64,000 nucleotides of DNA from Gordius sp. MW1 (Eukaryota > Nematomorpha > Gordioida > Gordea > Gordiidae). Under the pieces are notes generated by a model that had not been told where the DNA came from, ran no database searches, and was given only the letters and a program-made list of their open reading frames with translations. Of the stretch, positions 12,462-61,314 are shown piece after piece (position 1 is the stretch's first letter; each line of letters opens with the position of its first letter). The translations under genes were made by a program, and so were the position numbers. The stretch is taken from the NCBI GenBank assembly GCA_964036665.1, contig OZ038526.1, positions 36,146,001 to 36,210,000 of the forward strand, written 5' to 3'.

Positions 12462-15303
12462 CCCGACAGGTACCAGTGTAACTTTTAGGTGACGCAACTT
12501 TAAAACCACATTTCTTAAAAACTACAGAAGATAAAAACATTTTTTAAATTAAATTTGAAAGAACGAAATGCGATAAATCAGCTGATATAATTTCATAACT
12601 CCTTCTTCCTTCATTCGTGAATTATTCTCATTCAAAAATCGCAAAATCTGCATTTTCTACCTCCCTTCTTAAATTCAATATTTATGGATACTCAACTGTA
12701 AGTTTTTGCAATTTAATTTGCATATTTATAATCTCTATAATTTTTCCAACATTTTGATAGTAATTTTGAATTTATTTGAGTACTTTAAAGCCTTTAAATT
12801 TTGCCTTAAAGTTGAACATAACCTAAAGGTTACACTGGGCAGAGCTAGTTTGCCGAGCATATCTTTTTAAGTGTTTTCATTTTAAAAGTATGGATCTTTT
12901 ATATATATTTTTGTCTTTTTCTCGTAAACCTTAATGGTTTATAAGGGGTGGGGCTAGGAAAGTCAAGAATATCGCAAATTTTACACCTATAGGAAATAAA
13001 AATTAGTCTAGGTAAATTTTCATTTTCAAATTTTTGCTAATTTTTTAGTAGGAAATATGCAAAAAACAATATTTATATATATATTTACACATCCTATCAC
13101 CACAAATAAGTATGAGAATAAGGAGGTCGAACTCAATTGATAAATTTCATGCGATTTTTGTTATTCATTCGGATTCTATCTGTCGTTTTAAAAAGTTAAA
13201 AGTGATTTATAATAGAATTTGAGACATAAGTCCCCTTTTTAAATATTATGTACTATTATTAGTTTTATTATTTTGCGTTAGAACTTTGATAGACATTATA
13301 GAGGAATTGGACACACCGAATGAAAATATTGACGAAGTACTGATTTTTCCGCCTCAAGACGAAGGGGACACGGATATGGAAAGTGGGGATGAAATGGACT
13401 TTGATCTGCAACATTTGCCACGATCTATGCTTAATTCCTGTATTGAGGTGGTTAGGTCAAATGAGCTCGATAACTTTCAAGATATAGACGGTAAATGGAC
13501 CGATAATGACGTCATATTTAGGCCACGGGGTTGTGGGGACTCTGATGAAAATCGTATATTCAACCCCATCGTTTTAGAGCATCCTGAAGACTATTTAGAA
13601 CAGTTTATCTCAAATGATGTTATTACACTTGTTGTAAATATGAGTAATTTATATGCAAGACAACACAACCATGATCTAAATTTAACGATTAGCGAATTCA
13701 AAATCTACATTTCAATCCTTTTTTTAACTGGTTACTTGTCCCCAAAAAATATCAAAATGTTTTGGGAACTTCAGGCCGATTCATTTAACAAAATGGTATC
13801 CAATGGTATGCGCAGAAATCGGTTTCAAGAGATAACTAAATATCTCCATCTGTCAGATAACTCGAAATTGTTCCCATCAGACAAATTTTCCAAGATACGC
13901 GGTTTTCTAGATATTTTGAATGATAGGTTTAAACCAATTTTAAATATTGCAATTCCTCCCACATTGCTATGGATGAATCTATGGTCCCTTATTATGGACA
14001 CCACATTGCAAAGCAATTTATAAAAGGCAAGCCTTTTAGATTTGGCTTTAAAATGTGGTGTGCGGCCACTAAAACCGGCTACCTAATTAATATGCAGCCT
14101 TACCAAGGAGCCTCATATTTGATGACCAAGCAAAAGGATTTTGGATTAGGAGGAGCTGTAATATTAGACCTTGTAGAAAAACTCCCTCCCGATTTCGCCC
14201 CGTATAATATATATTTCGATAATTATTTTACCAGCTCCAAGTTATTGAAATGTCTTTCACATATGAATATTGGAGCTACTGGGACAGTACGAGTAAATCG
14301 TATCAAATGTCCCTTGATTGATATAAAGACCATGAAAAAAAAGGAAAGAGGGTTTATTTCAAAGAAGAATACACCTAACATCATGGCACTACGTTGGAAC
14401 GATAATAACATAGTGACATTGCTTTCTAATTGTCATGGTGTCACGCCCATAACTAATATAGCAAGAATTGCAACAGTTCAAAAATCAAGGAAAAAGATAT
14501 CAGTTCAATGCCCATTTATGGTGAAAATGTATAATAAATTCATGGGCGGCGTTGATCGCTTGGATCAGAACGTCGATGCGACTAGAATATCTTACAGGGG
14601 CAGGAAATGGTATTTTCCATTATTTGCGTTTGGATTAGATACAGCGTGTCAAAATGCTTGGCAACTGTATTGCATGAACAAAGGAAACATGACACTTTGT
14701 AACTTCAAACGGGAAATCGTCCAAAATTATTTTAAAAAATACGGCCAACTTCCGAAAAGAACGTTGAATCCTAGATTGACAAAAATTAGAAACGTCGTAG
14801 ACAATCATCAACGACAGCATTGTACTCAACGGCGCTGCGTTGTTTGTAAAAAAGCGACTAGAATATTATGTTCTTATTGCAATGTTGGACTTCACATGCA
14901 TTGTTGGTTATCGTTTCATAATAACTAAATGTTTTGCGCATATTTCGTTATATAATAAAATTTACAATTATGCTTATATATCTCTCGTTAACACACCTTT
15001 ATTTCCGGAAGTAAGTTATTTTTCCAGAAAATTTTTTTGTTTATCTAATAAGAACATATCGAGGTGCCCCGAAAAAAAATTTCATAAAAATTGGTTCAGC
15101 CGAACCCTTAGTGGTAGCTATCCGGTTAAATTTCCCTATATTTGTGTCTACCAGTGTAACTTTTAGGTGACACCCCTTTATTTCCAAAAGTAAGCTATTT
15201 TTCCGAAATTTTTTTTTGTTTATCTAATAAGAGCATATCGAGATGCCCCAAAAAAAATTTCATTGAAATTGGTTCGGCCGAACCGTTAGTGGTACCTGTC
15301 GGG
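12462..15303 (+). mobile_element. piggyBac transposon, nearly complete
   Basis: Flanked by TTAA on both sides (12458-12461 and 15304-15307) with inverted termini CCCGACAGGTACCA and TGGTACCTGTCGGG. The right subterminal region is present twice in tandem (about 14996-15135 and 15172-15303). It carries a single-frameshift transposase gene. The element sits inside the body of a CTCGT-type hAT-like element. Confidence 0.92.
13286..14928 (+). pseudogene. piggyBac transposase with one frameshift
   Basis: The DDE/DDD transposase would cut the transposon at TTAA. The first frame (13286-14023) has an acidic N-terminus and the DDE_Tnp_1_7-type helical region. The second (13969-14928) begins at the first catalytic aspartate (MDESMVPYYG), followed by the second (NIYFDNYFTSS, about 14210) and the third (GGVDRLDQN, about 14550). 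A C-terminal cysteine-rich domain follows (CVVCKKATRILCSYC, then HMHCWLSFH). A single indel between about 13950 and 13968 shifts the reading frame; otherwise both frames are clean. The first frame has no in-frame ATG near its 5' end, so the start codon or a 5' exon is unresolved. All catalytic aspartates are kept, so this is a recent casualty or contains a sequencing error. Confidence 0.88.
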
Positions 15304-17107: not shown

Positions 17108-17251
17108 TTTTTATTTTTTGAGACTTCATCTTCTCCTTTTTTTTTTTCCTGAAGATGGACCATAAGTGTCCGAAATATTGCGTTCCATTTCCCTCTACCT
17201 ACGCTATCAATCCAAATCCACCGTATTTATACAATGAAATTTATATAAACG
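17108..17251 (+). repeat. PLE pseudo-LTR, left copy
   Basis: Direct repeat with 25249-25392. It covers the first 30 or so codons of the ORF as well as the leader, so the right copy represents the start of a second, truncated unit. Confidence 0.8.
17149..17175 (+). ncRNA. Candidate hammerhead-ribozyme-like motif in the PLE leader
   Basis: CTGAAGA (17149-17155) is followed by a 4-bp stem GGAC/GTCC (17157-17160 with 17168-17171) and then GAAA (17172-17175), matching the CUGANGA-stem II-GAAA core order of hammerhead ribozymes, which are known from PLE pseudo-LTRs. One extra U lies between CUGANGA and the stem, and I could not identify convincing stems I and III. The ORF ATG overlaps the motif. 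Treat it as a candidate only. Confidence 0.35.
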
Positions 17252-19718
17252 GATTGAAAATTATTGACTATATACACAATACCTTCGGTAAAGGTAAATT
17301 CATATTTTATGATTTTATTAATTCTTTACTTAAAATATATATTGTTCATAATAAAATCTACTTCTTAAAAACCTGCTTAAAACTAAATTTAATACCTAAT
17401 TTCATCAATAATATATCTTTTCCAACTAATATTTTCAATACTAAAATTATTCATAATTTTAAAAAAGACTTAATCAAATCTGAAATTACAACACATTATT
17501 TTACCAAATTATCTTTACAATATAAACTAGCTAAACTTCAAAAACTATTGCTCAATAAGACTGAAATATCGTTTTATAACATATTTATAAAATACTCTAA
17601 CATTTTAGTCTACAATAAGATGCGTGATCCAGCTCAAAAGATGTTAAATAAATTAGACAAGTTAGTTAAACACAATGCCCTTCCCGTACACCCTATTAAT
17701 AAGCCTCCAGATATTTTTATAAAGAAACCTATAACAAGCATTAATAAACCATCATTTGTAAATTTATCAAGTGTTAACTTTGATCAAACTCAGACTAATT
17801 TGCTTAATCTTGGCCCTAAATTTTGTCTCAGCAACAATAAAATAAATTTACTATCTACTTTGAATAGCTTCAATAATATTTTAAACACAATAAACTATAA
17901 ATATCCTGACAATACACATTTAAAAAATTCATTAGAATCTTTTCTCTCTAATACTTTAAACAATGACTGTCCTTCAAAAGTTGACAAATGTAAATTAAAA
18001 AAAGAAAAAGAAGCCTTTTTAATTGTCAAATCAATAAAGTCTAATAGTAATATAAGAATATGCAAAGCAGATAAAGGAGGACAGCTAGTAGTAATGAATA
18101 CAGAAGATTATAACAAAAAAATGCTTGATATTTTAAAAGATAATAGTTTGTTCAAGGAGTTAAAAAAGAATCCTACTAATGTTCGAGAAAAAAAGTTACA
18201 AACTTTTTTATTAAACTTATCTAAAAATAATATAATAAGTTCTTCTTTATATTGGAAGTTAAGACCCTCCACTTCCCGCACTCCTCAAATTTATGGGTTA
18301 CCCAAAATTCATAAACCTTCAATTCCATTAAGACCAATAGTATCTTCATATAATTCCTACAACTTTAATGTTAGTCAGTACCTAATATCAATTTTACAAC
18401 CATATGTTGATATACCCTTAATTCTTAAAAACTCTTTGATTTGATTAATCGCTTGAAAAGCTTCCCTTTACCAGATTCATTTTCACTTGTAAGTTTTGAC
18501 ATCCAATCACTATTTACAAACATTCCTCTAGATTATGCCATAAATTATTGCTTGAAACTTTATGACAAAATTCAACAACCCCCCTTTACCAAAACTATCT
18601 TTAAAGATTTATTAAATTTTTGCAAAACAAATAACTTTCAGTTTAATAACATTAATTATGATCAAATTGATGGTACTGCAATGGGTAATCTTCTTGCTCC
18701 AATTATTTCTAACATATTCCTTAACGAACTAGAATCCTACATACAAACTGCCAGTTTATTCCCCCCTTTTTATGCCAGATACGTTGATGATATTTTATGT
18801 ATTTGGCCTCATAACCTAACCACTGACTTAAACGACTTCTTAAATGTGTTGAATTCATTTCATAAAAAGATAATCTTTACAGTGGAAATAGAAACCAACA
18901 AACAGTTACCATTTTTAGATGTAACCCTCCACAACCTAAATGACAAAATTATCACAACAGTTTATCGTAAACCAACTGACTCTTCTCAATTTATACCATG
19001 GCACAGCCACTCCCCCTCATCTTTTAAAATCAAGACTTTTAGGATGATGGTTAAAAGAGCTATAACTCATTGCTCTCTAGAATCTGATAGAGACATTGAA
19101 ATGGATAATATAACACAAAGATTTTTAGAGCTAAATTATCCCCTTGATTTGCTCACAAACATTAAAAATAAATTTTTAACATTCCCAAAAATGTCAACTA
19201 ATGTAGACTCCACTCCTAATACAGATCATTATATCTCTATTCCCTTTCACACTAATCTTAGTAATAATTTCCTAAAAGAAATCAAAAAGATTTTACATGT
19301 TCACAAAATAGACAATTTCAAGTTTTCTCAGAAAACCACATCCAACCTATTCTCATTAATTAAGCCCTTTAATAACATTACAGATAAAAATCTTGTTTCT
19401 AATTTAATTTATAAAATCTCCTGCGCCGATTGCGACCAATTTTACGTTGGAGAAACTAAAAGAACCTTAGCACAAAGAATCCAAGAACACAAGGCCCCGT
19501 TAACAAGATGCGCAACACATTCCGCCGTGGCCGAACACTCGCTAACCAATCAACATAGCATGGATTGGGACAATCCGACCGTTCTTTACAAAGCACGATT
19601 CAACCAAGAAAGAAAATTCGTAGAAAGCGTCCTGATCGATCGCCTCAAGCCGAAAATTAACGACCAACCCGGCCAATTTCGAAGCTACAAGCACACCCAT
19701 CCTCACTTACCTTCATAA
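17155..19718 (+). pseudogene. Penelope-like reverse transcriptase with C-terminal GIY-YIG endonuclease, one frameshift
   Basis: The N-terminal 250 residues are Asn/Ile/Leu/Lys-rich and family-specific. The RT follows: ICKADKGGQLVVMN, then PQIYGLPKIHKP and LRPIVSS (18270-18345), motif A SLVSFDIQSLFTNIPL (18485-18535), motif B GTAMGNLLAPIISN (18670-18715), motif C YARYVDDILCIW (18770-18808) with the catalytic YVDD, then TVYRKPTDSS. The C-terminal GIY-YIG domain has LIYKISCADC and FYVGETKRTLAQRIQEH (19400-19490), with the conserved glutamate in RKFVESVLIDR. The first frame stops at 18444, and the second is open from about 18441 and continues the homology. Restoring one T in CTCTTTG (18430-18440) would join them, so this is a single-base frameshift. 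Everything else appears intact. Confidence 0.92.
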
Positions 19719-19764
19719 TATCATAACAGATAATACTCTAATTTTAATTAATGTATTCTCCTGT

Positions 19765-20031
19765 GTCGATTACTATCAATTTTTAGACTTGGAGCGACAA
19801 CAACAACAAAAAAGAACACTGACACAAAGCTCCAAAAATGCGCGACCTACTCCGCCTTACCCTAAGCCTAACTATCGTTAAAGATTCAACATGGCAGATT
19901 GGATAACCCGACTGCCATTCACATAGCGCGATACAACAAAGGAATTTCGTAGAAAGCGTTTTAATCGACCGCGTCAAGCCCAAAAAACAAACAAACAAAA
20001 TCAACGACCATCCAATTTCATTACCACAAGC
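19765..20031 (+). pseudogene. Second, diverged copy of the PLE GIY-YIG 3' segment
   Basis: After the ORF stop, the sequence repeats the GIY-YIG region in degenerate form: TCTCCTGTGTCGATTA matches TCTCCTGCGCCGATTG (19415-19432), and TTCGTAGAAAGCG with CGTCAAGCC match the 3' end of the ORF. Stops interrupt it. It continues after the foldback insertion at 24948. This implies tandem PLE units of different ages. Confidence 0.75.
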
Positions 20032-20494
20032 TAGTGTTGTAAAAACGGCTGGCTGGTTTTTCCCAGCGTATTGCTAAGCTTAGTTGTTGGCGTTTTTTTT
20101 CACCCAACCTTTTCAGTGTTAGGTGAATTTTCTTGGGAGGGCTTTGGCGTTTGGCGTTTTCGTAAAAAACACCCAAAGCGTTTTGGGTGTTTTTTTTGGG
20201 GCACCTTTGGCGTTTAGGTTTGGGTGTATTAAAGAGCTAAAGGGTTTGGGTGGATAATATTATTAACCTTTTGGTTTGGTTTTGGTCGTTTTGGGTTGGG
20301 CATGCAAATATATCAATTTGTTTATCATATTTGTGTATTTAGATTTAGGTAATGAACTTTTAATTTAAGAAAATAAAAATAAATGTATCATGACGTCACA
20401 ATCTAGTAAATTCAGTAAATTATAATTAATTATTATGCATTATAGAAGTAGGTAGTAAATTAATATGTTTTATTTATGAAAAAAATTTGTGAAG

Positions 20495-21835
20495 ATTTGC
20501 CCCCCCCCTTATTTTTTACCCTCTTTCTCACCTGGGGAGGAACGGCGGGCAGGTGGGGTGTTTGCCCCCCCCCCTAATTTTTTACCCTCTTTCTGATGCG
20601 GGGGAGAGGGGGGCGTTTTGCCCCCCCCCCCAATTTTTTACCCTCTTTCTGATGCGGGGGAGAGGGGGGTGTTTTGCCCCCCCTAATCTTTTACCCTCTT
20701 TCTGATGTGGGGGAGAGGGGGGCATGGGGGGTGTTTTGCCCCCCCCCCACCTAATTTTTTACCCTCTTTCTGATGTGGGGGAGAGGGCGGGGGGCATGGG
20801 GGGTGTATTGCCCCCCTGTCCCCCCTACTTTTTTACCCTCTTTCTGATGCGAGGGAGAGGGGGGTGTTTTGCCCCCCGCCACCTAATTTTTTACCCTCTT
20901 TCTGATGTGGAGGAGAGGGGGGGCATGGGGGGTGTTTTGCCCCCCCCCTAATTTTTTACCCTCTTTCTAAGGCGGGGGGGGGGGGGGGGGCAGGGGGGTG
21001 TTTTGCCCCCCTCCCCCCTAATTTTTTACCCTCTTTCTTAAGTGGGGGAGAGGGGGGCATGGGGGGTTTTTGCCCCCCCCCCCCAATTTTTTACCCTCTT
21101 TCTGATGCGAGGGAGAGGGGGTGGAAGGGGGGTGTTTTGCCCCTTCCTAATTTTTTACCCTCTTTCTTAAGTGGGGGAGAGGGGGCAGGGGGTGTTTTGT
21201 CCCCCCCCCCTCCCCCCTAATTTTTTTACTTTCTTTCTGATGTGGGGGAGAGGGGGGCATGGGGGGTGTTTTGCCCCCCCTAATTTTTTACCCTCTTTTT
21301 GATGTGGAAGAGAGGGGGGCATAGGGGGTGTTTTGCCCCCCCCCTAATTATTTACCCTCTTTCTGATCCGGGGGAGAGGGGGGCATGGGGGGTGTTTTGC
21401 CCCCCCCCCCCAATTTTTTACCCTCTTTCTGATGCGGGGGAGAGGGGGGGGGGGGCAGGGGGGTGTTTGGCCCCCCTCCCCCCTAATTTTTTACCCTCTT
21501 TCTGATGCGAGGGAGAGGGGGTGGAAGGGGGGTGTTTTGCCCCTTCCTAATTTTTTACCCTCTTTCTTAAGTGGGGGAGAGGGGGCAGGGGGTGTTTTGT
21601 CCCCCCCCCCCTCCCCCCTAATTTTTTTACTTTCTTTCTGATGTGGGGGAGAGGGGGGCATGGGGGGTGTTTTGCCCCCCCTAATTTTTTACCCTCTTTT
21701 TGATGTGGAAGAGAGGGGGGCATAGGGGGTGTTTTGCCCCCCCCCCTAATTATTTACCCTCTTTCTGATGCCGGGGAGAGGGGGGGGGTGAATCGCCCCT
21801 CTTCTTATTTTTGACTCTCTTTCTCACCCGGGGGG
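20495..21835 (+). repeat. GC-rich minisatellite array, left arm
   Basis: About twenty tandem copies of a unit of roughly 60 bp: TTTTGCC, then a C run, TAATTTTTTACCCTCTTTCT, GATGCGGGGGAGAGG, then a G run. C and G runs vary from unit to unit. A block of several units (from about 21115) recurs almost unchanged about 390 bp downstream (from about 21505), showing block duplication within the array. Confidence 0.9.
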
Positions 21836-23125
21836 GGGGGACCGGAAAGCCCTTTTTAACCCTTTCAAAATATTTTTGTGAATTTTTGCGGTTACGGTGG
21901 TGACAAATGTCATAATCAACATTTTCTATTGAAATTAGTATTTTTTTTTGAAAATAGACTTCTTATGTTTATGTTCTACTATTATAAAAAATATTTTTGG
22001 GAAGATTTGCGGTCACAGTGGAGACAAATGTCTTAATCAACATTTTCTATTGAAATTTATTTTTTTTTTGAAAATTGACTTATTATATGACAAAGATTTT
22101 CTAAAATTCGAAAATATATTTTTGAAGATTTGCGGTCAACAATTGTCTTAATATACCATATCAATTAAAATAAATTTTTTAATTTAACTTAATTTAAGAA
22201 TAAGATGTATTATTAAATATAATATTAATATGAAATTTTACCAATTTAAAAAAATTTGCCATCATGGGTAAGTAAGTTTTACTATTTAAGTTATCTGGGC
22301 ATTTAATGGAAAAACTTAAGGTATTTCCAAAAAGCATATCATGCTATTAATTACTATGCTTTCACAAGACAAGGCACCAACACTCTACGTCCTGTTGACT
22401 TAGACCTCGCGTTTACAATGCTTATAAGGATCATAAAAAAACGGACTTTTCTGAGTAACAAAAATGAGTTAAGCATCTTAATTTAAATTGTTGCTTATTA
22501 TTTAATAAGAAACTTAATTTTCTAATTGCTTATGACTTAATTAGTAGTTGACATAATAAAAAAAAGTTTAATTTTCATTAATTTTATTTATAATAATATG
22601 ATTTGCAACTTCTACATACCTTGATATGTTACGTTAAAAAAGAAATGAATGTAAAATGATGTAATAAAGAGCCTAGCCAGCCCACGCCACACCATGCCTT
22701 GTTGTGCCTTATTTTTTTATATATTTAGTTTAGTACTTATCTTAAATCTGATAGGTTGCGCATGCATTGCAACGAGAAAGGGAGAGAGAGGGTGGATTAG
22801 TACATGAACATGTACATGATACATGGGAGTGGTGATATTTCGAGTCGCGCGGGATGCCGTTCTCTCATATTGAAAATATAGTTTAAATATAAAATAAAAG
22901 GGATATTATATAATTAATAAGTCTTTATCTTTTACAAGAGGCGAGGAATTCAAAATATATTTAAATTAAATTTTGTGATTAAAATTGCTATTGCCGGGAA
23001 TATTTAAATGGGGGTCTGTTAGCTGTCATTAATTTAGAATGAATTAAAATATTAATTTTTAATTGAAGGATTGAATTCAAAATCTGCTCTCGAATGGCCA
23101 GATAAATCTCACTTTATAATCGTTT
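21836..23125. other. Central loop of the foldback element
   Basis: Contains three imperfect tandem copies of about 110 bp (21865-22160) with the shared stretches AAGATTTGCGGTCACAG and AATCAACATTTTCTATTG. The rest is AT-rich. No transposase frame is present, so mobility must have been supplied in trans. Confidence 0.6.
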
Positions 23126-24480
23126 TCTATTTATTGAAAACACCCCACCTGCACCCCTCTCCCCCGCATCAGAAAGAGGGTAAAAAATTAGGGGGGGGGG
23201 GGGGGGAGGGGGCAAAACACCCCTGCCCCCCTTCTCCCTCGCATCAGAAAGAGGGTAAAAAATTGGGGGGGGGCAAATAATCCCCCATGCCCCCCCTCTC
23301 CCCCGCATTAGAAAAAGGGTAAAAAAGGGGGGGGCAAAACACCCCCCATGCCCCCCCCCCTCTCCTCCACATCAGAAAGAGGGTAAAAAATTAGGGGGGG
23401 GGGGGGCAAAACACCCCCCATGCCCCCCCCTCCCCGCATTAGAAAGAGTATAAAAAATTAGGGGGGGGGGGCAAAACACTCCTTGCCCCTCTCTCCCTCG
23501 CATCAGAAAGAGGGTAAAAATTAGGGGGGGGGGCAAAACACCCCTTGCCCCCCCCCTCTCCCTCGCATCAGAAAGAGGGTAAAAAATTGGGGGGGGGGGC
23601 AAAACACCCCCCATGCCCCCCTCTCCCCCACATCAGAAAGAGGGTAAAAAATTAGGGGGGGGGCAAAACACCCCCCATGCCCCCCCCCCTCTCCTCCACA
23701 TCAGAAAGAGGGTAAAAAATTAGGGGGGGGGGCAAAACACCCCCCATGCCCCCCCCCCCTCCCCGCATTAGAAAGAGTATAAAAAATTAGGGGGGGGGGG
23801 CAAAACACTCGTTGCCCCTCTCTCCCTCGCATCAGAAAGAGGGTAAAAATGGGGGGGGGGCAAAACACCCCCCATGCCCCCCTCTCCCCCGCGGCGGAAC
23901 ACCCCCATGCTTCCCTCTCCCCCGCATTAAAAAGAGGGTAAAAAACTAGGGGGGGGGGCAAAACACCCCCCCCCCCCATGCCCCCCTCTCCCCCGCATTA
24001 GAAAGAGGATAAAAAATTAGGGGGGGGGGGGCAAAACACCCCCTGCCCCCCCTCTCCCTCGCATCAGAAAGAGGGTAAAAAATTGGGGGGGGGGGCAAAA
24101 CACCCCCCATGCCCCCCCCCCCTCCCCGCATTAGAAAGAGTATAAAAAATTAGGGGGGGCAAAACACCCCCTATGCCCCCCCTCTCCCCCACATCAGAAA
24201 GAGGGTAAAAAATTAGGGGGGGGGGGGGCAAAACACCCCCCATGCCCCCCTCTCCCCCACATCAGAAAGAGGGTAAAAAATTAGGGGGGGGGGCAAAACA
24301 CCCCCCATGCCCCCCCCTCTCCCCCGCATCAGAAAGAGGGTAAAAAATTAGGGGGGGGGCAAAACACCCCCCTCTCCCCCGCATCAGAAAGAGGGTAAAA
24401 AATTAGGGTGGGGGGCAAAACACCCCACCTGCCCGCCGTTCCTCCCCAGGTGAGAAAGAGGGTAAAAAATAAGGGGGGGG
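23126..24480 (-). repeat. GC-rich minisatellite array, right arm (inverted)
   Basis: Same repeat unit as the left arm, in reverse orientation (AGAAAGAGGGTAAAAAATTA flanked by G and C runs). Internal block duplications also occur here (23330-23520 compared with 23660-23850). Confidence 0.9.
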
Positions 24481-25248
24481 GGCAAATCTTCACAAATTTT
24501 TTTCATAAATAAAACATATTAATTACTACCTACTTCTATAATGCATAATAATTAATTATAATTTACTGAATTTACTAGATTGTGACGTCATGATACATTT
24601 ATTTTTATTTTCTTAAATTAAAAGTTCAATACCTAAATCTAAATACACAAATATGATAAACAAATCGATATATTTGCATGCCCAACCCAAAACGACCAAA
24701 ACTAAACCAAAAGGTTAATAATATTATCCACCCAAACCCTTTAGCTCTTGAATACACCCAAACCTAAACGCCAAAGGTGCCCCAAAAAAAACACCCAAAA
24801 CGCTTTGGGTGTTTTTTACAAAAACGCCAAACGCCAAAGCCCTCCCAAGAAAATTCACCTAACACTGAAAAGGTTGGGTGAAAAAAAACGCCAACGCTTG
24901 CAGGCAACCAATAGAAACCCTTGGTTTTTTACAACACTACCACAAGCCCATACATCCACACATATTTTTAGATTATTCACTATGTCTACCTACCCGTTCA
25001 ATACTCAAAACTATAATTTGTTAAGCACAGTTATTATATTTATATATTAAATAACTCTGCTCCCCCCTTTTCTCTTATTATTTAGCTATTTACTTTTTTC
25101 GCACCTTTTTCCTATCTCCATATGTATCTACTCTATTCTTATAAAAAACATCCATCCCTACAATCGCTATTGTTAATTTCTCGCTATAACCAGTTTTTGT
25201 AATTTTTTTTTTGTATCTATATCATCGTTGTTATAATCACTTTACTTC

Positions 25249-25392
25249 ATTTTTATTTTTTGAGACTTCATCTTCTCCTTTTTTTTTTCCTGAAGATGGA
25301 CCATAAGTGTCCGTAATATTGCGTTCCATTTCCCTCTACCTACGCTATCAATCCAAATCCACCGTATTTATACAATGAAATTTATATAAAAT
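25249..25392 (+). repeat. PLE pseudo-LTR, right copy
   Basis: Near-identical to 17108-17251. In this copy the hammerhead-like GAAA core reads GTAA (CCGTAATATT near 25312), so the motif would be inactive here. Confidence 0.8.
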
Positions 25393-26101
25393 GCTATTGT
25401 TATTAAATTAACGTACATTTCTAACAATAAAAAGTTTAAAATAAAAATTCCGTTTCACTTGCTGCAATTTATTCAGCAAATAATTTAAAACTAAAAAGTA
25501 AAATATATTTTTCAGCAGTTCCAAATAAAAAACTTTTAGAATTTATCTATTTTATTTCCAAAGCTTTAACAACTGCTATGATTTGCAATTTAGGCCAAAA
25601 TATTAAAATAGACAGGGAAAAAAGAGGAAGTTTAAAAGCTATATTATGTACGCTGTGAGAAGATAATTATTTAGTATCGAAAGAGTTTATTTAAATCATA
25701 TTTTATAAGAGATTAGTTTGCTTTAGTGCCGTTCAGGCCGGACTCAGTCTTTGATTGGGGCCGCCTTATTAGGCTCAATTATTTTGTTACATTCTGACCT
25801 ATTATTTATAAAGAAAAATAACATATCCAATGCCTGGCAATTTTTAACCTTTTAAAATATAGACCTAGGGTTCATTGATCTTCTGTGTACAAAATAAGCG
25901 CAGACGTTTAATAATATAAGTAAAATTTAAACTGTTTTTAATTTTAAATGTTAAACTGAGCCCTAAAATCAACTTAGATAGAAACAATGCAGGACCAATG
26001 TTTAGACGCACATTTACCTCACTTTAGTTTTTAGCTCGGTTAGACATCACTAAAAACATCTGTTAAGCCTATTTTCAAAATTTTACAAATTGCTCGTAAT
26101 C
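25393..26101. other. Intergenic spacer upstream of the aldo-keto reductase
   Basis: AT-rich, no open frame with recognisable content. It should contain the promoter of the reductase gene, but no element can be assigned. Confidence 0.4.
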
Positions 26102-31525: not shown

Positions 31526-33445
31526 ATAACTCGGGCCTTCGGCCCTCGTGGGAAGGGGGAGAAGGGAAGGGAAGAGGGGAAGGGAAGGGGGGACGACTCA
31601 TCTGTACTTCGTATAAATGTATCATATTTGCTATGCAATTTATGGGCGAGAAAGGTGGGAAGGGGCGAGAATGCCTATAGGGGGGTATTAAATGCCTAAT
31701 GATTAATTAATTATTTATACAAATTTTTCATTATAGGCAAAATGTAATAAAGGCAAAATGTAATATAGGCAAGGGTTAGGGTTAGATTTAGTGTTTGCAT
31801 CTAGTTGCGTATTACATTAGTTTTTATGGCCTTTAGTGATTATGGGTCTAACAAACATTATATTATAAAACAACACAATGTTAAGAATTTGCAGAATTGT
31901 TGGGAGAAGGTTTTTGTTGAATTTGAACAATTTTTAATTAAAAAAATCAAAAATTTGGCCAATGGTCACTTTTTCTCTATTGGTCAGTACCAACAGATAC
32001 TCTATAAGTCAATGATAGCCAAAAAAAACGGAAAAAAAAATTTTGATGCTCACTTTGGCCAATGGTCATTTTTTTCCATTGGTCAGCAGCCAGCACACGG
32101 TAAAAGTGGATATAAATTCATAAGAGTAAAAAAACGAAAAAAAAAATTTCGAATCACATTTTGGCCAATGGTCATTTTTATCCATTGGTCAGCAGCCAGG
32201 ACACGGTAAAAGTGTCTATAAATTCATAATAGTCAAAAAAAAACGAAAACAAAGTTTTCGAATCACATTTTGGCCAATGGTCATTTTATTCCATTAGTCA
32301 GCAGCCAGCGGACGGCCAAAAAGTCATAATAGCAATGGTAGGAACAGGAACAATCATAATAGTCAAAAAAAACGAAAAAAATAATTTCGATTCACATTTT
32401 GGCCAATGGTCATTTTTTCAATCGGTCAGGAGCCAGCGAACGGCCAAAAAGTCATAATAGCAATGGTAGTAACAGGAACAATCATAATAGTCAAAAAAAA
32501 CGAAAAAATAAACTCGGATTCACATTTTGGCCAATGGTCATTTTTTTCATTGGTCAGCAGCCAACGGACGGCCAAAAAGTCTTATTATCAATGATAGTAA
32601 CAAGAACAATCATAAAAGTCAAAAAAAACTCCGGGATTCTAACCCAAAAACTAGTTAAATTGCATAGCAATTAAAAGTAAACAACTTTTATTTATGTTTA
32701 TTATATAACATTGGTCAGCAGCCAGCGGACGGCCAAAAAGTCATAATAGCAATGGTAGAAACAGGAACAATCATAATAGTGAAAAAAAACGAAAAAAATA
32801 ATTTCGATTCACATTTTGGCCAATGGTCATTTTTTTCATTGGTCAGCAGCCAGCGGACGGCCAAAAATTCTTATTATCAATGATAGTAACAAGAACAATC
32901 ATAAGAGTCAAAAAAACTTCCGGGATTCTAACCCCAAAACTAGTTAAATTGCATAGCAATTAAAAAGTAAACAACTTTTATTTATGTTTATTATATAACT
33001 AGTTAAATTGCATAGCATTAAAAGTAAACAACTTTTATCTATGTTTATTATATAACAAAAACTAGTTAAATTGCATAGCAATTAAAAGTAAACAACTTTT
33101 ATTTATGTTTATTATATAACTAGTTAAATTGCATAGCAATTAAAAGTAAACAACTTTTATTTATGTTTATTATATAATAGATAATTTAACAAATCTTATA
33201 TATAACAACATATAACACACCGAGAGAGATAGAGATGAGGGGTGGGGCACCTCTTATGCATTAATTCAAAAAATAACACAACGAAGGAGATAGAGATGAG
33301 GGGTGGGGCACCTCTTTCTCATCCATTAATTTAAAAAAGCGATAACCTAATATACCCAATGCCAATAGATAGGGATGGACGGACGGACGGACAGACAGAC
33401 GGACGGACGGACGGACAACAAAAAACGAGCCCATAAATTGCATAG
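31526..33445. mobile_element. Helitron/Helentron-like repeat, copy A
   Basis: Begins TCGGGCCTTCGGCCCTCG (a GGGCC-TTC-GGCCC hairpin), followed by a purine-only tract GGGAGAAGGGAAGGG..., then five to six tandem units of about 120 bp (GGCCAATGGTCATTTTT, CATTGGTCAGCAGCC, GGACGGCCAAAAAG) at 31960-32900, then three to four copies of a 63-bp unit with the palindrome AATTGCATAGCAATT (32940-33180), and a (GGAC)n microsatellite. Copies B (about 44125-46405, inverted) and C (48438-49660) share this order. Termini-plus-minisatellite architecture resembles non-autonomous Helentrons, but the class is inferred. Confidence 0.55.
33372..33418. repeat. GGAC tetranucleotide microsatellite
   Basis: About eleven tandem GGAC/GACA units, located near the end of Helitron-like copy A. 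Confidence 0.85.
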
Positions 33446-35311: not shown

Positions 35312-38300
35312 ACATAAGATTGGATTTTGGGGGACATTAATTAGAAGCGGGGGGGGGGGGCACGGCATTTATTTCATCTAGAGATCAGTTGGTGGGGATT
35401 TTTGTAACGGGGGAAAGGGGCACATATCATTTGTTTCATCGTTTGACGTGATTGTATATTCGACTTTAGTGGACATTGATTAGAGGGGGAAGGCACACGT
35501 TATTCGTTCGATTTTGGTGTGATTTTTGTAACGAGGGAAATAAACACACATCATTTGTTTCATCGTTTGACGTAATTGTATATTCGACTTTTATATGGAC
35601 ATTGAATAGAGGGGGAAGGCACACGTTATTCGTTCGATTCTGGGGGTGATTTTTCGTAAAGATGGGGGGGGTGTACGGTCCTCGCAGCAGCTTTTGAGGT
35701 AAAATTTGGGGTTAGGATAACTATTTGTGGGGGCACACGTTTAACTTCATCTCTTGACATAAGATTGGATTTTGGGGGACATTAATTATAAGGTGGGGGG
35801 GCACGACATTTTTTTTTTATTTTTTTTTTTATTTTTTTTTATTTTTTTATTTATTTTTTTTTTTGTAAATAAAATTAATTAGAAGCGGGGGGGGGGGCAC
35901 GGCATTTATTTCATCTTGAGATCAGTTGGTGGTTATTTTTGTAACGGGGGAAAGGGGCAAAAATCATTTGTTTCATCGTTTGACGTGATTGTATATTCAA
36001 CTTTGGTGGACATTGATTAGAGGGGGAGGCACACGTTATTCGTTCGATTCTGGGGATGATTTTTGTAACGGGGGAAATAGGACACATCATTTCTTTCATC
36101 GTTTGACGTAATTGTATATTCGACTTTGGTGGACATTGATTAGAGGGGGAAGGCACACGTTATTCGTTCGATTCTGGGGGTGATTGTTCGTAAAGATGGG
36201 GGGGGTGTACGGTCCTCGCAGCAGCTCTTGAGATAAAATTTAGGGTTAGGATAACTATTTGTGGGGGCACACGTAATTAACTTCATCTCTTGACATAAGA
36301 TTGGATTTTGGGGGACATTATTTAGAAGCGGGGGGGGGGGCACGGCATTTATTTTATCTTGAGATCAGTTGAAGGTGATTTTTGTAACGGGGGAAAGGGG
36401 CACACATCATTTGTTTCATCGTTTGACGTGATTGTATAGTCTACTTTGGTGGACATTGATTTTAGGGGGAAGGCAGACGTTATTCGTTCGATTTTGGTGG
36501 TGATTTTTGTAACGGGGGAAAGAGCACACATCATTTGTTTCATCGTTTGACGTAATTGTATATTCGACTTTGGTGGACATTGATTAGAGGGGGAAGGCAC
36601 ACGTTATTCGTTCGATTTTGGTGGTGATTTTTGTAACGGGGGAAATAGGCACACATCATTTGTTTCATCGTTTGTCGTAATTGTATATTCGACTTTGGTG
36701 GACATTGATTAGAGGGAGAAGGCACACGTTATTCGTTCGATTTTGGTGGTGATTTTTGTAACGGGGGAAATAGGCACACATCATTTGTTTCATCGTTTGT
36801 CGTAATTGTATATTCGACTTTGGTGGACATTGATTAGAGGGGGAAGGCACACGTTATTCGTTCGATTTTGGTGGTGATTTTTGTAACGGGGGAAATAGGA
36901 CACATCATTTCTTTCATCGTTTGACGTAATTGTATATTCGACTTTGGTGGACATTGATTAGAGGGGGAAGGCACACGTTATTCGTTCGATTCTGTGGGTG
37001 ATTGTTCGTAAAGATGGGGGGGGGTGTACGGTCCTCGCAGCAGCTCTTGAGAAAAATTTAGGGTTAGGATAACTATTTGTGGGGGCACACGTAATTAACT
37101 TCATCTCTTGACATAAGATTGGATTTTGGGGGACATTAATTATAAGGTGGGGGGGGGGGGCACGACATTTTTTTTTTTTTTTTTTTATTTTTTTTTTATT
37201 TTTTTTTTTAAATAAAATTAATTAGAAGCGGGGGGGGGCACGGCATTTATTTCATCTTGAGATCAGTTGGTGGTTATTTTTGTAACGGGGGAAAGGGGCA
37301 AAAATCATTTGTTTCATCGTTTGACGTGATTGTATATTCAACTTTGGTGGACATTGATTAGAGGGGGAAGGCACACGTTATTCGTTCGATTCTGGGGGTG
37401 ATTTTTGTAACGGGGGAAATAGGACACATCATTTCTTTCATCGTTTGACGTAATTGTATATTCGACTTTGGTGGACATTGATTAGAGGGGGAAGGCACAC
37501 GTTATTCGTTCGATTCTGGGGGTGATTGTTCGTAAAGATGGGGGGGTGTACGGTCCTCGCAGCAGCTCTTGAGATAAAATTTAGGGTTAGGATAACTATT
37601 TGTGGGAGCACACGTAATTAACTTCATCTCTTGACATAAGATTGGATTTTGGGGGACATTAATTATAAGGTGGGGGGGGGGGCACGACATTTTTTTTTTA
37701 TTTTTTTTTTATTTTTTTTTATTTTTTTTTTATATTTTTTTTTTTGTAAATAAAATTAATTAGAAGCGGGGGGGGGCACGGCATTTATTTCATCTTGAGA
37801 TCAGTTGGTGGTTATTTTTGTAACGGGGGAAAGGGGCAAAAATCATTTGTTTCATCGTTTGACGTGATTGTATATTCAACTTTGGTGGACATTGATTAGA
37901 GGGGGAAGGCACACGTTATTCGTTCGATTCTGGGGGTGATTTTTGTAACGGGGGAAATAGGACACATCATTTCTTTCATCGTTTGACGTAATTGTATATT
38001 CGACTTTGGTGGACATTGATTAGAGGGGGAAGGCACACGTTATTCGTTCGATTCTGGGGGTGATTGTTCGTAAAGATGGGGGGGGTGTACGGTCCTCGCA
38101 GCAGCTCTTGAGATAAAATTTAGGGTTAGGATAACTATTTGTGGGGGCACACGTAATTAACTTCATCTCTTGACATAAGATTGGATTTTGGGGGACATTA
38201 TTTAGAAGCGGGGGGGGCACGGCATTTATTTTATCTTGAGATCAGTTGAAGGTGATTTTTGTAACGGGGGAAAGGGGCACACATCATTTGTTTCATCGTT

Positions 38301-39475
38301 TGACGTGATTGTATAGTCTACTTTGGTGGACATTGATTTTAGGGGGAAGGCAGACGTTATTCGTTTGATTTTGGTGGTGATTTTTGTAACGGGGGAAAGA
38401 GCACACATCATTTGTTTCATCGTTTGACGTAATTGTATATTCGACTTTGGTGGACATTGATTAGAGGGGGAAGGCACACGTTATTCGTTCGATTTTGGTG
38501 GTGATTTTTGTAACGGGGGAAAAAGGCACACATCATTTGTTTCATCGTTTGTCGTAATTGTATATTCGACTTTGGTGGACATTGATTAGAGGGGGAAGGC
38601 ACACGTTATTCATTCGATTTTGGTGGTGATTTTTGTAACGGGGGAAATAGGCACACATCATTTGTTTCATCGTTTGTCGTAATTGTATATTCGACTTTGG
38701 TGGACATTGATTAGAGGGGGAAGGCACACGTTATTCGTTCGATTTTGGTGGTGATTTTTCGTAAAGATGGGGGGGGATGTACGGTCCTCGCAGCAGCTCT
38801 TGAGGTAAAATTTAGGGTTAGGATAACTATTTGTGGGGGCACACGTAATTAACTTCATCTCTTGACATAAGATTGGATTTTGGGGGACATTAATTATAAG
38901 CGGGGGGGGGGGGGGGGGCACGGCATTTTTTCTTTTTTATTTTTATTTTTTCTTTTTTTTATTTTTTTTTTCTTTTATTTTTTTTTTCTTTTTTTTTTTT
39001 TCTTTTTTGTAAATAAAATTAATTAGAAGCGGGGGGGGGGCACGGCATTTATTTCATCTTGATGTCAGTTGATTCTGATTTTGTAACGGGGGAAAGGGGC
39101 ACAAATCATTGGTTTCATCGTTTGACGTGATTGTATATTCGACTTTGGTGGACATTGATAGATGGGGAAGGCACACGTTATTCGTTCGATTTTGGTGGTG
39201 ATTTTTGTAACGGGGGAAAGAGGCACACATCATTTGTTTCATCGTTTAACGTAATTGTATATTCGAATTTGGTGGACATTGATTAGAGGGGGAAGGCACA
39301 CGTTATTCGTTTGATTTTTGTGGTGATTTTTCGTAAAGATGGGGGGGGGGGTGTACGGTCCTCGCCAGCTCTTGAGATAAAATTTAGGGTTAGGATAACT
39401 ATTTGTGGGGGCACACGTAATTAACTTCATCTCTTGACATAAGATTGGATTTTGGGGGACATTAATTAGAAGCGG
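35312..39475. repeat. Satellite array with nested periods (about 125 bp and about 1.88 kb)
   Basis: Basic unit of about 125 bp, visible three times in a row at 36540, 36665 and 36790 and again at 38417, 38542 and 38667 (TTTGTAACGGGGGAAA, CATCATTTGTTTCATCG, GTATATTCGACTTTGGTGG, GGCACACGTTATTCGTTCG). Blocks of units alternate with a linker (GTGTACGGTCCTCGCAGCAG, TAGGGTTAGGATAACTATTT, TGACATAAGATTGGATTTTG) and a T-rich tract, then a G run. Whole blocks recur about 1,877-1,880 bp apart (36349 and 38226; 36540 and 38417). Open frames on the minus strand are by-products of the 125-bp period. Confidence 0.9.
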
Positions 39476-45029: not shown

Positions 45030-46309
45030 CCCACCCCTCATCTCTATGTGTTAGAATAGTAATACATACGCGTGTCTCCTCCCCACATCATCTCTCTCTC
45101 GTTATCGATTTTACGGGTAGGGTCGGGTTTTAATAATATTCACATTCCATTTTGTTTTGTCCCGCTATTCGGTGTCTTGCACCGAATGTCTTGTCTTGCA
45201 ACGAATGTCTTGTCTTGCACCGAATGTCTTGTCACGTTGTTTACTTTTAATTTTTGTTAATTTAACTAGTTTTTGGGTTCGAATCCCGGCGTTTTTTTGA
45301 CTCTTATGATTGTTCTTGTTACTACCATTGATAATAAGACTTTTTGGTCGTCCGTTGGGTGCTGACCAATGAAAAAATGACCATTGAACGTGAATCCAAG
45401 TTTTTTTTCGTTTTTTTGACTATTAGGATTGTTCCTGTTACTACCATTGCTATTATGACATTCTGGCCGTCCGCTGGCGCCTGACCGATGGAAAAAAATT
45501 ACCATTGGCCAAAATGTGAATCGAAATTTTTTTCCGTTTTTTTTGGCTAACATTGATAATTACCCTATGCCCTCTCCGAGCAGAGCCTATGCCTCTACTG
45601 ATATGGGTCCCTGTGCCCCCCCCCCTACAAAAGCCTATGCCTTACCTGATGTGGGTTCGAATCCCAAAGAGGCCAAATTTTTTTTTATTTTTTTTGTTAA
45701 AATTAATAAATTGTTCTTGTTAATACCATTGATAATAAGACTTTTTGGCCGTCCGTTGGCTGCTGACCAATGGAATGAAATGACCATTGGCCAAAATGTG
45801 AAGCAAAATTTTTTTTTCGTTTTTTTTGACTATTATGATTGTTCTTGTTAATACCATTGATAATATGGCTTTTTGGCAGTCCGTTGGCTGCTGACCAATG
45901 GAAAAAAATGACCATTAGCCAAAATGTGAATCGAAAATTTTTTTATCGTTTTTTTTTGACTCTTATGAATTTATATCCACTTTTACCGTGTCCTGGCTGC
46001 TGACCAATAAAAAAAATGACCATTGGCCAAAATGTGAATCGAAAATTTTTTTTCCGTTTTTTGACTCTTAATAATTTATATCCACTTTTACCGTATCCTG
46101 GCTGCTGACCAATGAAAAAATGACCATTGGCTAAACTGTGAAACGAAGTTTTTTTTTCGTTTTTTTCGACTCTTTTTGTATAAATAATTAAATAATCATT
46201 TTGGATTTAATACCCCCCCCCCCTATAGGCATTCTCGCCCCTTCCCACCTTTCTCGCCCATAAATTGCATAGCAAATATGCTACCTTTATACAGAGTATA
46301 GAAGAGTTC

Positions 46310-46382
46310 GCCCTTCCCTTCCCCTCTTCCCTTCCCCTCTTCCCTTCCCTTCCCTCCTTCCCTTCCCCTCTCCCCCTTCCCA
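46310..46382. repeat. Pure pyrimidine tract
   Basis: About 70 bases of only C and T (CCCTTCCCCTCTTCCC repeats), mirror-like. The equivalent purine tracts are at 31548-31592 and 48468-48502 in copies A and C. Such tracts can form triplex DNA. Confidence 0.8.
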
Positions 46383-48437: not shown

Positions 48438-49660
48438 GACTCGGGCCTTCGGCCCTCGTGAGAAGGGGGAGAAGGGAAGGGAAGAGGGGAAGGGAAGGGG
48501 GGACGACTCATCTGTACTTCGTATAAATGTATCATATTTGCTATGCAATTTATGGGCGAGAAAGGTGGGAAGGGGCGATAATGCCTATAGGGGGTATTAA
48601 ATGCCTAATGATTAATTAATTATTTATATAAATTTTCCATTTATAGGCAAAATGTAATATAGGCAAGGGTTAGGGTTAGATTTAGTGTTTGCATTTAGTT
48701 GCGTATTATATTAGTTTTTATGGCCTTTAGTGATTATGGGTCTAACAAACATTATATTAAAAACATCACAATGTTAAGAATTTGCAGAATTGTTGGGAGA
48801 AATTTTTTGTTGAATTTGAACAATTTTTAAATAAAAAAATCAAAAATTTGGCCAATGGTCATCTTTTCTCTATCGGTGAATACCAACAGATACTCTATAA
48901 GTCAATGATAGCCAAAAAAACAGAAAAAAAAATTTTGATGCTCACTTTGGTCAATGGTCATTTTTTTCCATTGGTCAGCAGCCAGCACACGGTAAAAGTG
49001 GATATAAATTCATAAGAGTAAAAAAAAACGAAAAAAAAATTTTCGAATCACATTTTGGCCAATGGTCATTTTTTCCATTGGTCAGCAGCCAGCACACGGT
49101 AAAAGTGGATATAAATTCATAAGAGTAAAAAAAACGAAAAAAAAATTTTCGAATCACATTTTGGCCAATGGTCATTTTATTCCATTGGTCAGCAGCCAGC
49201 GGACGGCCAAAAAGTCATAATAGCAATGGTAGGAACAGGAACAATCATAATAGTCAAAAAAAACGAAAAAAATAATTTCGATTCACATTTTAGCCAATGG
49301 TCATTTTTTCCATCGGTCAGGAGCCAGCGGACGGCCAAAAAATCATAATAGCAATGGTAGTAACAGGAACAATCATAATAGTCAAAAAAAAACTAAAAAA
49401 ATAATTTCGATTCACATTTTGGCCAATGGTCATTTTTTCATTGGTCAGCAGCCAGCGGACGGCCAAAAATTCTTATTATCAATGATAGTAACAAGAACAA
49501 TAATAAGAGTCAAAAAACTCCGGGATTCTAACCCCAAAACTAGTTAAATTGCATAGCAATTAAAAAGTAAACAACTTTTATTTATGTTTATTATATAACT
49601 AGTTAAATTGCATAGCATTAAAAGTAAACAACTTTTATCTATGTTTATAAATTTTTTACT
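48438..49660. mobile_element. Helitron/Helentron-like repeat, copy C
   Basis: Direct-orientation relative of copy A, starting ACTCGGGCCTTCGGCCCTCG and ending in the AATTGCATAGCAATT units. It shares the TAATATAGGCAAGGGTTAGG stretch and five tandem units with GGCCAATGGTCATTTTTTCC. It lacks the GGAC microsatellite end. Confidence 0.55.
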
Positions 49661-60179: not shown

Positions 60180-61314
60180 TTAATTGTATACACCCACGAG
60201 AGCTGGGCGTATTGTACGATCTTTTAACTGATACCCAATTTTGGTAACTACAGATATACTTCCTGAACTATACTTATGTGATTTTGTTTTGTCTACTGGA
60301 TCTTTAGATTGGACATCATTCAATGTTTGAGACTTTTCTTGTGCTTGTTCTGGTATCGGAGATGAAAATAATGCTTCATGGATATGTGGATTGAATTTAT
60401 CACCTGGTGATGGATTTATTTGAATGAGTCCATTTTTATTAAAAACTTTTTGCAATTGTTGTGACGTCATTTTAAGGCCTTCATTCAAACTTATAAATTG
60501 TGTTTTTAACAAATTATCATTGTCATTTGTAGATTGTTCCTCCTGAATTTGTTTAAGTAACTCTGGTGGCACACTTTCACATGCTTTAGCAAGTATGTCT
60601 GCAACTTCTAATAGATCCTTGCAAAACCCTTGAATGGCATATACCTTTACTTTTTCCACTTCTTTGGTCATGCGTTGCCTGGTATTTTCAGTTTCAGCCA
60701 AGGCTCGGGCATACCTATCCTTATATATAAATTAATAATAAATTGTAAAATAAAATTGAAAACAAATTATTTAAAACTGGATACTACCTAAATAACATAA
60801 AAGATTCACAATTTAAACATGACATAAACTTTGTAATAGTTATTTTTTACCTTTAAATCTTTAATACTTTCTTGCAAGCTTTTGTTTTCTTGAAGAATTT
60901 GTTTTAAATCAATTTTAGTTGTATCCTCATTTAAAGAATCTTTTTTTCCTTTTAAAATTCTAGAAAATACACCACCTTCCTCTTTTGGCACCTGGCTTTC
61001 TTCTGAATTAACACCTTCTGGTGGGGCAGAACGTTCATTAGTTTGATTGCTTATTTTTCTACATAAATTGTGACAAGGCCCAAAGGGATCCCTATTTTTT
61101 AAACTAAAATATAATTAAGGATATACTTTTATATAAAAATCCTTGGAAAATTATTTTCAAAAAATACCACAATTATGCTAATTTCAAACTTGTTTATTAA
61201 TATAAAACACGTAAGCAAGTTTATTTACAATTAGGAGCATAATTTATATTAATTATACCAGCGCTGAATTAATGATGCAAGAAATTTTGATTTAACTTTT
61301 GTGAAAGGCAACAT
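60180..61314 (-). CDS. GRPEL1: Mitochondrial GrpE homologue, three exons
   Basis: Nucleotide-exchange factor of mitochondrial Hsp70, working at the matrix side of the protein import motor. Exons on the minus strand: 61314-61259, 61103-60851 and 60719-60180, all with GT/AG boundaries and matching phases, giving 282 residues. The N-terminus MLPFTKVKSKFLASLIQRC is basic and hydroxylated with no acidic residues, fitting a matrix-targeting sequence. A long coiled coil follows (LKQILQENKSLQESIKDLK into DRYARALAETENTRQRMTKE). The GrpE head contains GFCKDLLEVADILAKACES, GLKMTSQQLQKVFNKNGL, FNPHIHEALF and a C-terminal IGYQLKDRTIRPALVGVYN. The protein is longer than typical GRPEL1 (about 217) because of a Ser/Asn/Glu-rich segment after the presequence. 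It is probably functional. GRPEL1 rather than GRPEL2 is inferred. Confidence 0.93.

Follow-up and report, generated by a model that had tools for sequence, protein, structure and literature searches.

A non-autonomous foldback transposon with hAT-like ends and arms of G/C-run minisatellites in the genome of Gordius sp. MW1

Foldback transposons with tandem-repeat arms are already known (FB, Galileo and Tetris), and here we describe a hAT-like variant with G/C-run arrays. It occupies positions 20032-24939 (4908 bp) of a 64,000-nucleotide stretch of the genome of Gordius sp. MW1 (C8:36146001-36210000); this whole stretch is called the window below, and the genome as searched comprised 211.8 Mb in 12 contigs. 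In the FB elements of Drosophila the long inverted arms consist largely of tandem repeats, vary in length and mostly come without a transposase; FB makes a 9-bp target duplication, and its repeat units are without homopolymer G/C runs. By this general description, FB has the tandem-repeat inverted arms, their variable length and the usual lack of a transposase in common with the present element, and is set apart by duplication length and repeat composition. The TU elements of sea urchin are foldback elements with tandem-repeat outer arms, 8-bp target duplications and a 15-bp repeat unit, and, going by that description alone, they may be the nearest precedent. Miniature hAT elements (mar, for example) have short hAT tips, make 8-bp duplications and are moved in trans; they are without long arms or arrays, and same-tip relatives of about 190-205 bp are present in this genome.

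Tetris of Drosophila virilis, in the excerpts of its description used here, consists of an outer flanking domain, a tandem-repeat domain and a non-coding middle without a conserved open reading frame (ORF); it makes duplications of 8-10 bp and has its tips in common with the miniature element DAIBAM (PMC4079207). Its units of 220 bp also form longer satellite-like arrays, its authors suggest Mutator as the superfamily, and a sea-urchin foldback is mentioned in the same text (PMC4079207). In Galileo, of the P superfamily, the internal tandem repeats of the long arms expand and contract independently in each arm, the longest arms belong to non-autonomous copies, and chimeric copies lack matching duplications; the excerpts further give 7-bp duplications, a known P-type transposase and, for the F subfamily, 210-bp repeats in two or three copies (PMC3573991). 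The element in the window is alike in architecture to both. It differs from Tetris, as excerpted, in its unit of about 60 bp versus 220 bp, and from Galileo, on the same footing, in the 7-bp duplication, the P-type transposase and the 210-bp repeats of the latter. It is distinct from both in its hAT-type signature, its short G/C-run unit, its high recent copy number and its arm-conversion signal. Among open-licence papers searched by title and beginning of the abstract, a scope that the primary TU and FB papers lie outside, no hAT foldback with G/C-run minisatellite arms was found.

With a probability of roughly 85%, we take the element to be a non-autonomous cut-and-paste DNA transposon of foldback architecture that is moved in trans by a hAT-type transposase. 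Its putative hAT membership is argued from the length and preference of the target duplication, the tip motif and the asymmetric ends, and the transposase step is presumed. The 13-bp tip TAGTGTTGTAAAA is found exactly at 20032 (plus strand) and 24939 (minus strand), the sole two exact matches within the window. With up to two mismatches the tip had six matches in the window and 4.8 were expected in shuffles, and therefore only the exact pair counts. The tips begin with TAGTG, which fits the hAT terminal repeat consensus YARNG. The 8-mer CCACAAGC occurs in the window only at 20024-20031 and 24940-24947, adjoining both tips. At least two copies of such an 8-mer were present in 19 of 100 shuffles, and the pair alone is not rare; what counts for the duplication is one 8/8 match abutting both tips, for which the chance is 3.4e-5. 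The initial annotation had proposed a 4.9-kb unit with hAT-like ends and a perfect 8-bp duplication, and its coordinates, tips and duplication were all confirmed.

Direct alignment of the two ends gave a strictly inverted terminal repeat (TIR) of only 14 bp, TAGTGTTGTAAAAA. Next come 40 bp on the left and 30 bp on the right, which are not mutually inverted repeats, and the long arms begin beyond. Positions 20086-20583 and 24398-24895 align as inverted arms over 498 nt at 93% identity without gaps, and the outer arm parts outside the arrays are 98.5% identical over 407-415 bp (blastn). Tandem Repeats Finder (TRF) placed the arrays at 20502-21788 and 23203-24486. Their units of about 60 bp carry C runs and G runs, with homopolymers of up to 17 in the window copy, and number 18 on the left and 17 on the right by motif count, the two arrays being mutually inverted. 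The earlier description of each arm as a unique part plus tandem units holds; it has to be amended at the ends, where the strict repeat stops after 14 bp. The longest stop-to-stop frame touching the element has 104 aa and is built of array units, the next-longest (101 aa) extends past the right end, and six frames of 62-104 aa gave no Pfam match at E 0.01, in agreement with the annotation that no transposase is encoded. The parts of the element are as follows.

20024..20031, no strand: left target site duplication CCACAAGC, present once in the joined-flank empty site
20032..20045, plus strand: left TIR, 14 bp, TAGTGTTGTAAAAA (exact tip match, end alignment)
20046..20085, plus strand: left-end-specific 40 bp, absent from the right end (end alignment)
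20086..20499, plus strand: left arm, outer unique part, about 98.5% identical to the inverted right arm
20500..21788, plus strand: left minisatellite array, about 60 bp per unit, 18 units containing runs of C and of G (TRF, motif count)
21789..23139, no strand: middle, about 1.35 kb, A+T-rich, without a recognisable gene
23140..24482, minus strand: right minisatellite array, 17 units, in the opposite orientation to the left one (TRF, motif count)
24483..24895, minus strand: right arm, outer unique part (inverted-arm alignment, blastn)
24896..24925, minus strand: right-end-specific 30 bp (end alignment)
24926..24939, minus strand: right TIR, 14 bp (exact tip match, end alignment)
24940..24947, no strand: right target site duplication CCACAAGC (exact 8-mer match)

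A query with the 469-bp left end gave 647 candidates in the genome; 40 were scored, and all were full-length at 96-100% identity. The window copy ranked first, ranks 2-21 (L002-L021) were one-end pieces of 3.5 kb only, and ranks 22-40 were fetched as 19 further copies. L034, whose right end lay out of view, was omitted, and the comparison thus covers 19 copies, the window copy and 18 others. Selection by the left arm means that copies without arms are unsampled. A perfect 8-bp duplication flanked 16 of the 18 fetched two-ended copies (17 of 19 with the window copy), so that further copies with the same ends and 8-bp duplications, for which the initial annotation had proposed to look, do exist. 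When the 17 duplications were oriented with the element, T stood at position 2 in 15 of them (P about 4e-6), and position 7 was A in 11, G in 5 and C in 1 (A or G in 16 of 17, P about 1.4e-4). These duplications fit a preference of the Hermes type, which the excerpts used here give as nTnnnnAn (PMC10368747). The left and right ends of Hermes are described there as dissimilar beyond the TIR (PMC10368747), and the 40-bp and 30-bp end-specific stretches are dissimilar in the same way.

The empty site is clear in five cases: the window copy, L039, L041, L045 and L031. For the window copy, the joined 160-bp flanks matched in 44 rows (40 of 147 candidates were scored), of which 40 rows cover all 160 bases at 99% and the four partial ones also span the junction; its target repeat adjoins an ORF with reverse-transcriptase and GIY-YIG domains. 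The target of L039 is uninterrupted in L051, with a single GTTCATAG and continuous flanks. Joined flanks of L041 matched over 300/300 bp at 99.3% without gaps, those of L045 over 300 bp at 92.8% and those of L031 over query positions 97-300 at 90.7%, the last two with no gap at the junction. In these three empty sites, found among other fetched DNA, the 8-mer is single. Flank matches of the window copy and of L047 that lay within their own stretches were set aside as own-flank repeats. These results demonstrate that the element is a real, recently mobile transposon and not an assembly inversion. The empty sites exclude such an inversion as the origin of the element, which disposes of an artefact that the initial annotation had allowed for; the exact array lengths are not thereby proven.

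The family is numerous. Exact matches to the 33-bp left end number 216 genome-wide and those to the 35-bp right end 101 (0 for either reversed control), and the 13-bp tip has 5208 occurrences versus 50 for its reversed control. The middle of the window copy (1351 bp) was matched over 1307-1351 bp at 91.7-99.9% in all 18 other full copies. On C1-C4, where every left end was listed, an exact right end lies within 15 kb of 43 of the 96 exact left ends, at spans of 229-11,984 bp (36 of the 43 at 3.3-6.75 kb), and 7 of 50 exact right ends are unpaired. A 21-mer of the array unit has 2362 exact occurrences, which at 16.8 per copy corresponds to about 140 copies. The first 100 places listed for it fall into 11 clusters, of which nine are plus-then-minus pairs, one is one-sided and one is incomplete at the end of those 100. 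The gap between the arrays of the nine convergent clusters is 223-2032 bp, in some shorter than in the window copy, as judged from positions only. Within these first 100 places the minisatellite thus occurs in inverted pairs, and no long free array is among them, in contrast to the satellite-like arrays in the excerpts on Tetris. Long G/C-run minisatellites can therefore be dispersed genome-wide by transposition, in inverted pairs.

Short elements capped by the same tips also occur, and three were read: two of about 205 and 190 bp in L050, with partly diverged tips, and a third in L044 (203 bp), flanked by the near-matching 8-mers CTAATATC and CTGATATC. By position only, several convergent tip pairs lie 163-196 bp apart among the listed TAGTGTTGTAAAA places, and one left-right end pair spans just 229 bp. 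Convergent left-left end pairs 1.36-1.81 kb apart were noted, again from positions only, at C2:15361662-15363021, C3:9758008-9759583 and C4:22696865-22698674, and are possible left-left derivatives of the foldback family. At C2:5564910-5659104, six exact left ends alternate in orientation with start-to-start spacings of about 21.5, 15.8, 19.5, 15.8 and 21.5 kb, a pattern suggestive of the amplification of a palindromic segment.

Comparison between copies, which the initial annotation had proposed for the array lengths, showed that they are variable: in the 19 copies the left array has 11-42 units and the right 10-24, and homopolymers reach 26 in L032. Four sets of sister copies (L041/L044/L046, L038 with L039 and L045, the window copy with L033, and L031/L032) differ by 0-2 substitutions in the 1.2-1.3 kb middle and by 7-17 gap events per array. 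For L041/L044/L046 the figures are 0-1 substitutions in 1331 bp and 7-16 gap events in each array. With near-identical middles and so many gaps, the arrays change faster than the middle mutates, and part of the gap events may stem from sequencing errors in homopolymers.

The unique arm parts form two subfamilies, A (7 copies) and B (12 copies), with diagnostic variants in both arms. In subfamily B the differences between the two arms of the same copy sum to 34, whereas the mean after permutation was 52 and none of 20,000 permutations was as low; with eight clade representatives the values were 27 and 37.7 (P 0.001). L047 and L049 each have variants private to both arms of the single copy. A left-arm variant private to the L041/L044/L046 clade is also present in the right arm of L046 alone, and the two arms are identical within L046, as they are within L039. 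Because own arms are closer than permuted arms, these data indicate arm-to-arm conversion in subfamily B; subfamily A gives no such signal. In our judgement, the owners of foldback elements are often unclear and few data show what keeps two long arms similar. The present family is young and high in copy number and has hAT hallmarks and empty sites, and its sister copies make arm conversion and array turnover measurable against the middle region as a clock.

These observations can be put together in a provisional mechanism. A hAT transposase encoded elsewhere would recognise the tips and the end-specific stretches, and the arms and arrays would be passengers or amplifiers, dispensable for strand cleavage. 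Within the long palindrome, one arm could serve as template for the other during repair or replication, by gene conversion or template switching, and such templating would keep the arms alike. Array length would change by slippage or unequal exchange among the G/C-run units. The initial annotation had suggested a very large hairpin and quadruplex structures. A giant arm-to-arm hairpin is indeed predicted from the sequence, and canonical quadruplex motifs are enriched but few, with 4 on the plus strand and 10 on the minus strand of the element versus 8 and 17, respectively, in the remaining 59 kb; the quadruplex suggestion is thus supported at the level of motifs only. Four single units folded as DNA gave z -0.3 to -1.5 against dinucleotide shuffles, and their hairpins were not clearly better than those of the shuffles.

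Selection for transposition may instead have kept the arrays, as multiplied transposase-binding or chromatin sites and not as passengers; we regard this as possible, on the unlikely side. Both the Tetris and the Galileo papers, as excerpted, consider tandem repeats as additional binding sites for the transposase, and the arm repeats of Galileo hold secondary ones (PMC3573991, PMC4079207). The BED domains of Hermes bind subterminal repeats, according to the excerpts on that system (PMC10368747), and every one of the 19 full copies has at least 10 units per arm. Against this, the sampling by left arm passed over any arm-less copies, the left-right end pair 229 bp apart exists (by position), and the three short elements share only the tips. 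It is doubtful, though conceivable, that the G/C-run arms are the active engine and not cargo. G and C runs would then stall forks or form breaks, which the palindrome would repair from its own other arm, giving a self-homogenising, length-shifting hairpin spread by a hAT transposase that others supply; the unit itself would either be a transposase-binding site in multiple copies or act as a programmed hot spot of recombination.

Several observations weigh against a hAT-moved foldback as set out above. L032 and L037 lack matching duplications; L032 abuts part of another copy (303 bp matches the family middle), and its site is therefore a rearranged one. The best flank relatives of L037 and L042 are gapped at the junction and that of L038 matches at only 80%; all three were rejected as empty sites, being too weak. 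On C1-C4, 53 of 96 exact left ends are without an exact right end within 15 kb, and many copies have therefore diverged, been truncated or have a different right end. In subfamily A the own-arm sum of 30 equals the permuted mean of 30, and no permutation exceeded the observed value, which leaves the comparison without power there; for its seven copies no rare variants shared by both arms of a single copy were listed. Duplications of about 8 bp are also made by a few other superfamilies. Lastly, the hAT dimerisation domain (PF05699) gave 3413 first-look candidates in the genome, and none of the best 150, which were scored, lay within 10 kb inward of the ends listed (100 of 216 left ends and 100 of 101 right ends), so that the autonomous hAT with these ends, for which the initial annotation had proposed to look, was not found among them.

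In further searches for a transposase source, PF04937 (DUF659, 135 matches) and PF14291 (DUF4371, 129 matches) were, by eye, never seen inside a listed left-right pair. L050, with 3 kb between two convergent tips, was considered as an autonomous partner and rejected, as it holds two separate miniature elements with unrelated DNA between them. In the 8.6-kb left-right pair C1:15199961-15208526, no hAT gene was found in the 2.4 of 8.6 kb read (the middle, L051). Positions 1-1840 of L051 contain a 508-codon stop-to-stop frame, reverse-transcriptase-like by eye, which lies in or beside the arm of another foldback copy and is the same repeat that received L039. A tip pattern of neither the miniature nor the left-end type had 94 matches (a few places counted twice) versus 3 in the control. 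One such tip has a hAT domain (C5:8221681) at a distance of 1.4 kb and correctly oriented; by our own estimate about 0.3 such cases would be expected by chance.

That the same foldback is mobilised by another superfamily with duplications of about 8 bp (P/Galileo, Mutator, Merlin or Zisupton) is improbable. The owner transposase was not found here, which leaves room for it. Against it stand the 17 duplications, all exactly 8 bp and 15 of them with T at position 2, and the fit of TAGTG to YARNG in a genome rich in hAT domains. Mutator duplications are typically 9 bp and without the hAT preference, whereas those observed are 8 bp and have it. For the P superfamily, Galileo duplicates 7 bp in the excerpts cited above, and the present element has 8-bp duplications and no recognisable transposase within it.

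An assembly artefact, in the form of an inverted duplication or collapsed repeat, is hardly credible: the long G/C homopolymers (17 in the window copy, 26 in L032) are hard to sequence and array lengths may be wrong, but ends, arms and middle are common to copies from different contigs whose 8-bp duplications nevertheless differ, and the five empty sites refute it for the element itself, array lengths excepted. Scarcely more can be said for an older inverted duplication or satellite fragment between transposons that was never mobile as a unit, which the 2362 occurrences of the 21-mer made conceivable, since 9 of the 11 sampled clusters are convergent pairs and both the duplications and the empty sites coincide precisely with the tips.

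The surroundings of the element contain further repeats. Window positions 17122-19718 hold two frames that overlap and that we take to be Penelope-like; the second of them has reverse-transcriptase and GIY-YIG domains. The left flank of the element (19700-20031) is 68% similar to the 3' part of this repeat, and 25249-25390, in the right flank region 24940-25400, matches its start at 98.6%; from this flank likeness, such copies seem to be tandem. At 13223-14928, a PF13843 (DDE_Tnp_1_7) transposase, presumably of piggyBac type, is split over two overlapping frames.

Farther to the right, similar sets of 105-128-bp tandem repeats lie at 31550-33184, 45173-46381 and 48462-49648. By eye, from consensus units, the first and third have the same orientation and the second, about 13 kb from the first, is apparently inverted, and the three sets may belong to another element with tandem-repeat arms, larger than the first. 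At 35389-39336, a 123-125-bp unit forms long arrays that have a strong G skew (up to 0.41) and are broken by poly-T-rich stretches. A GrpE exon (PF01025) at 60180-60731 is the only host-type domain among the seven frames searched. Beside it, at 62079-63110, is a 343-aa open frame that is reverse-transcriptase-like by eye and has no Pfam match, and the stretch with both has a GC content of 49.5%.

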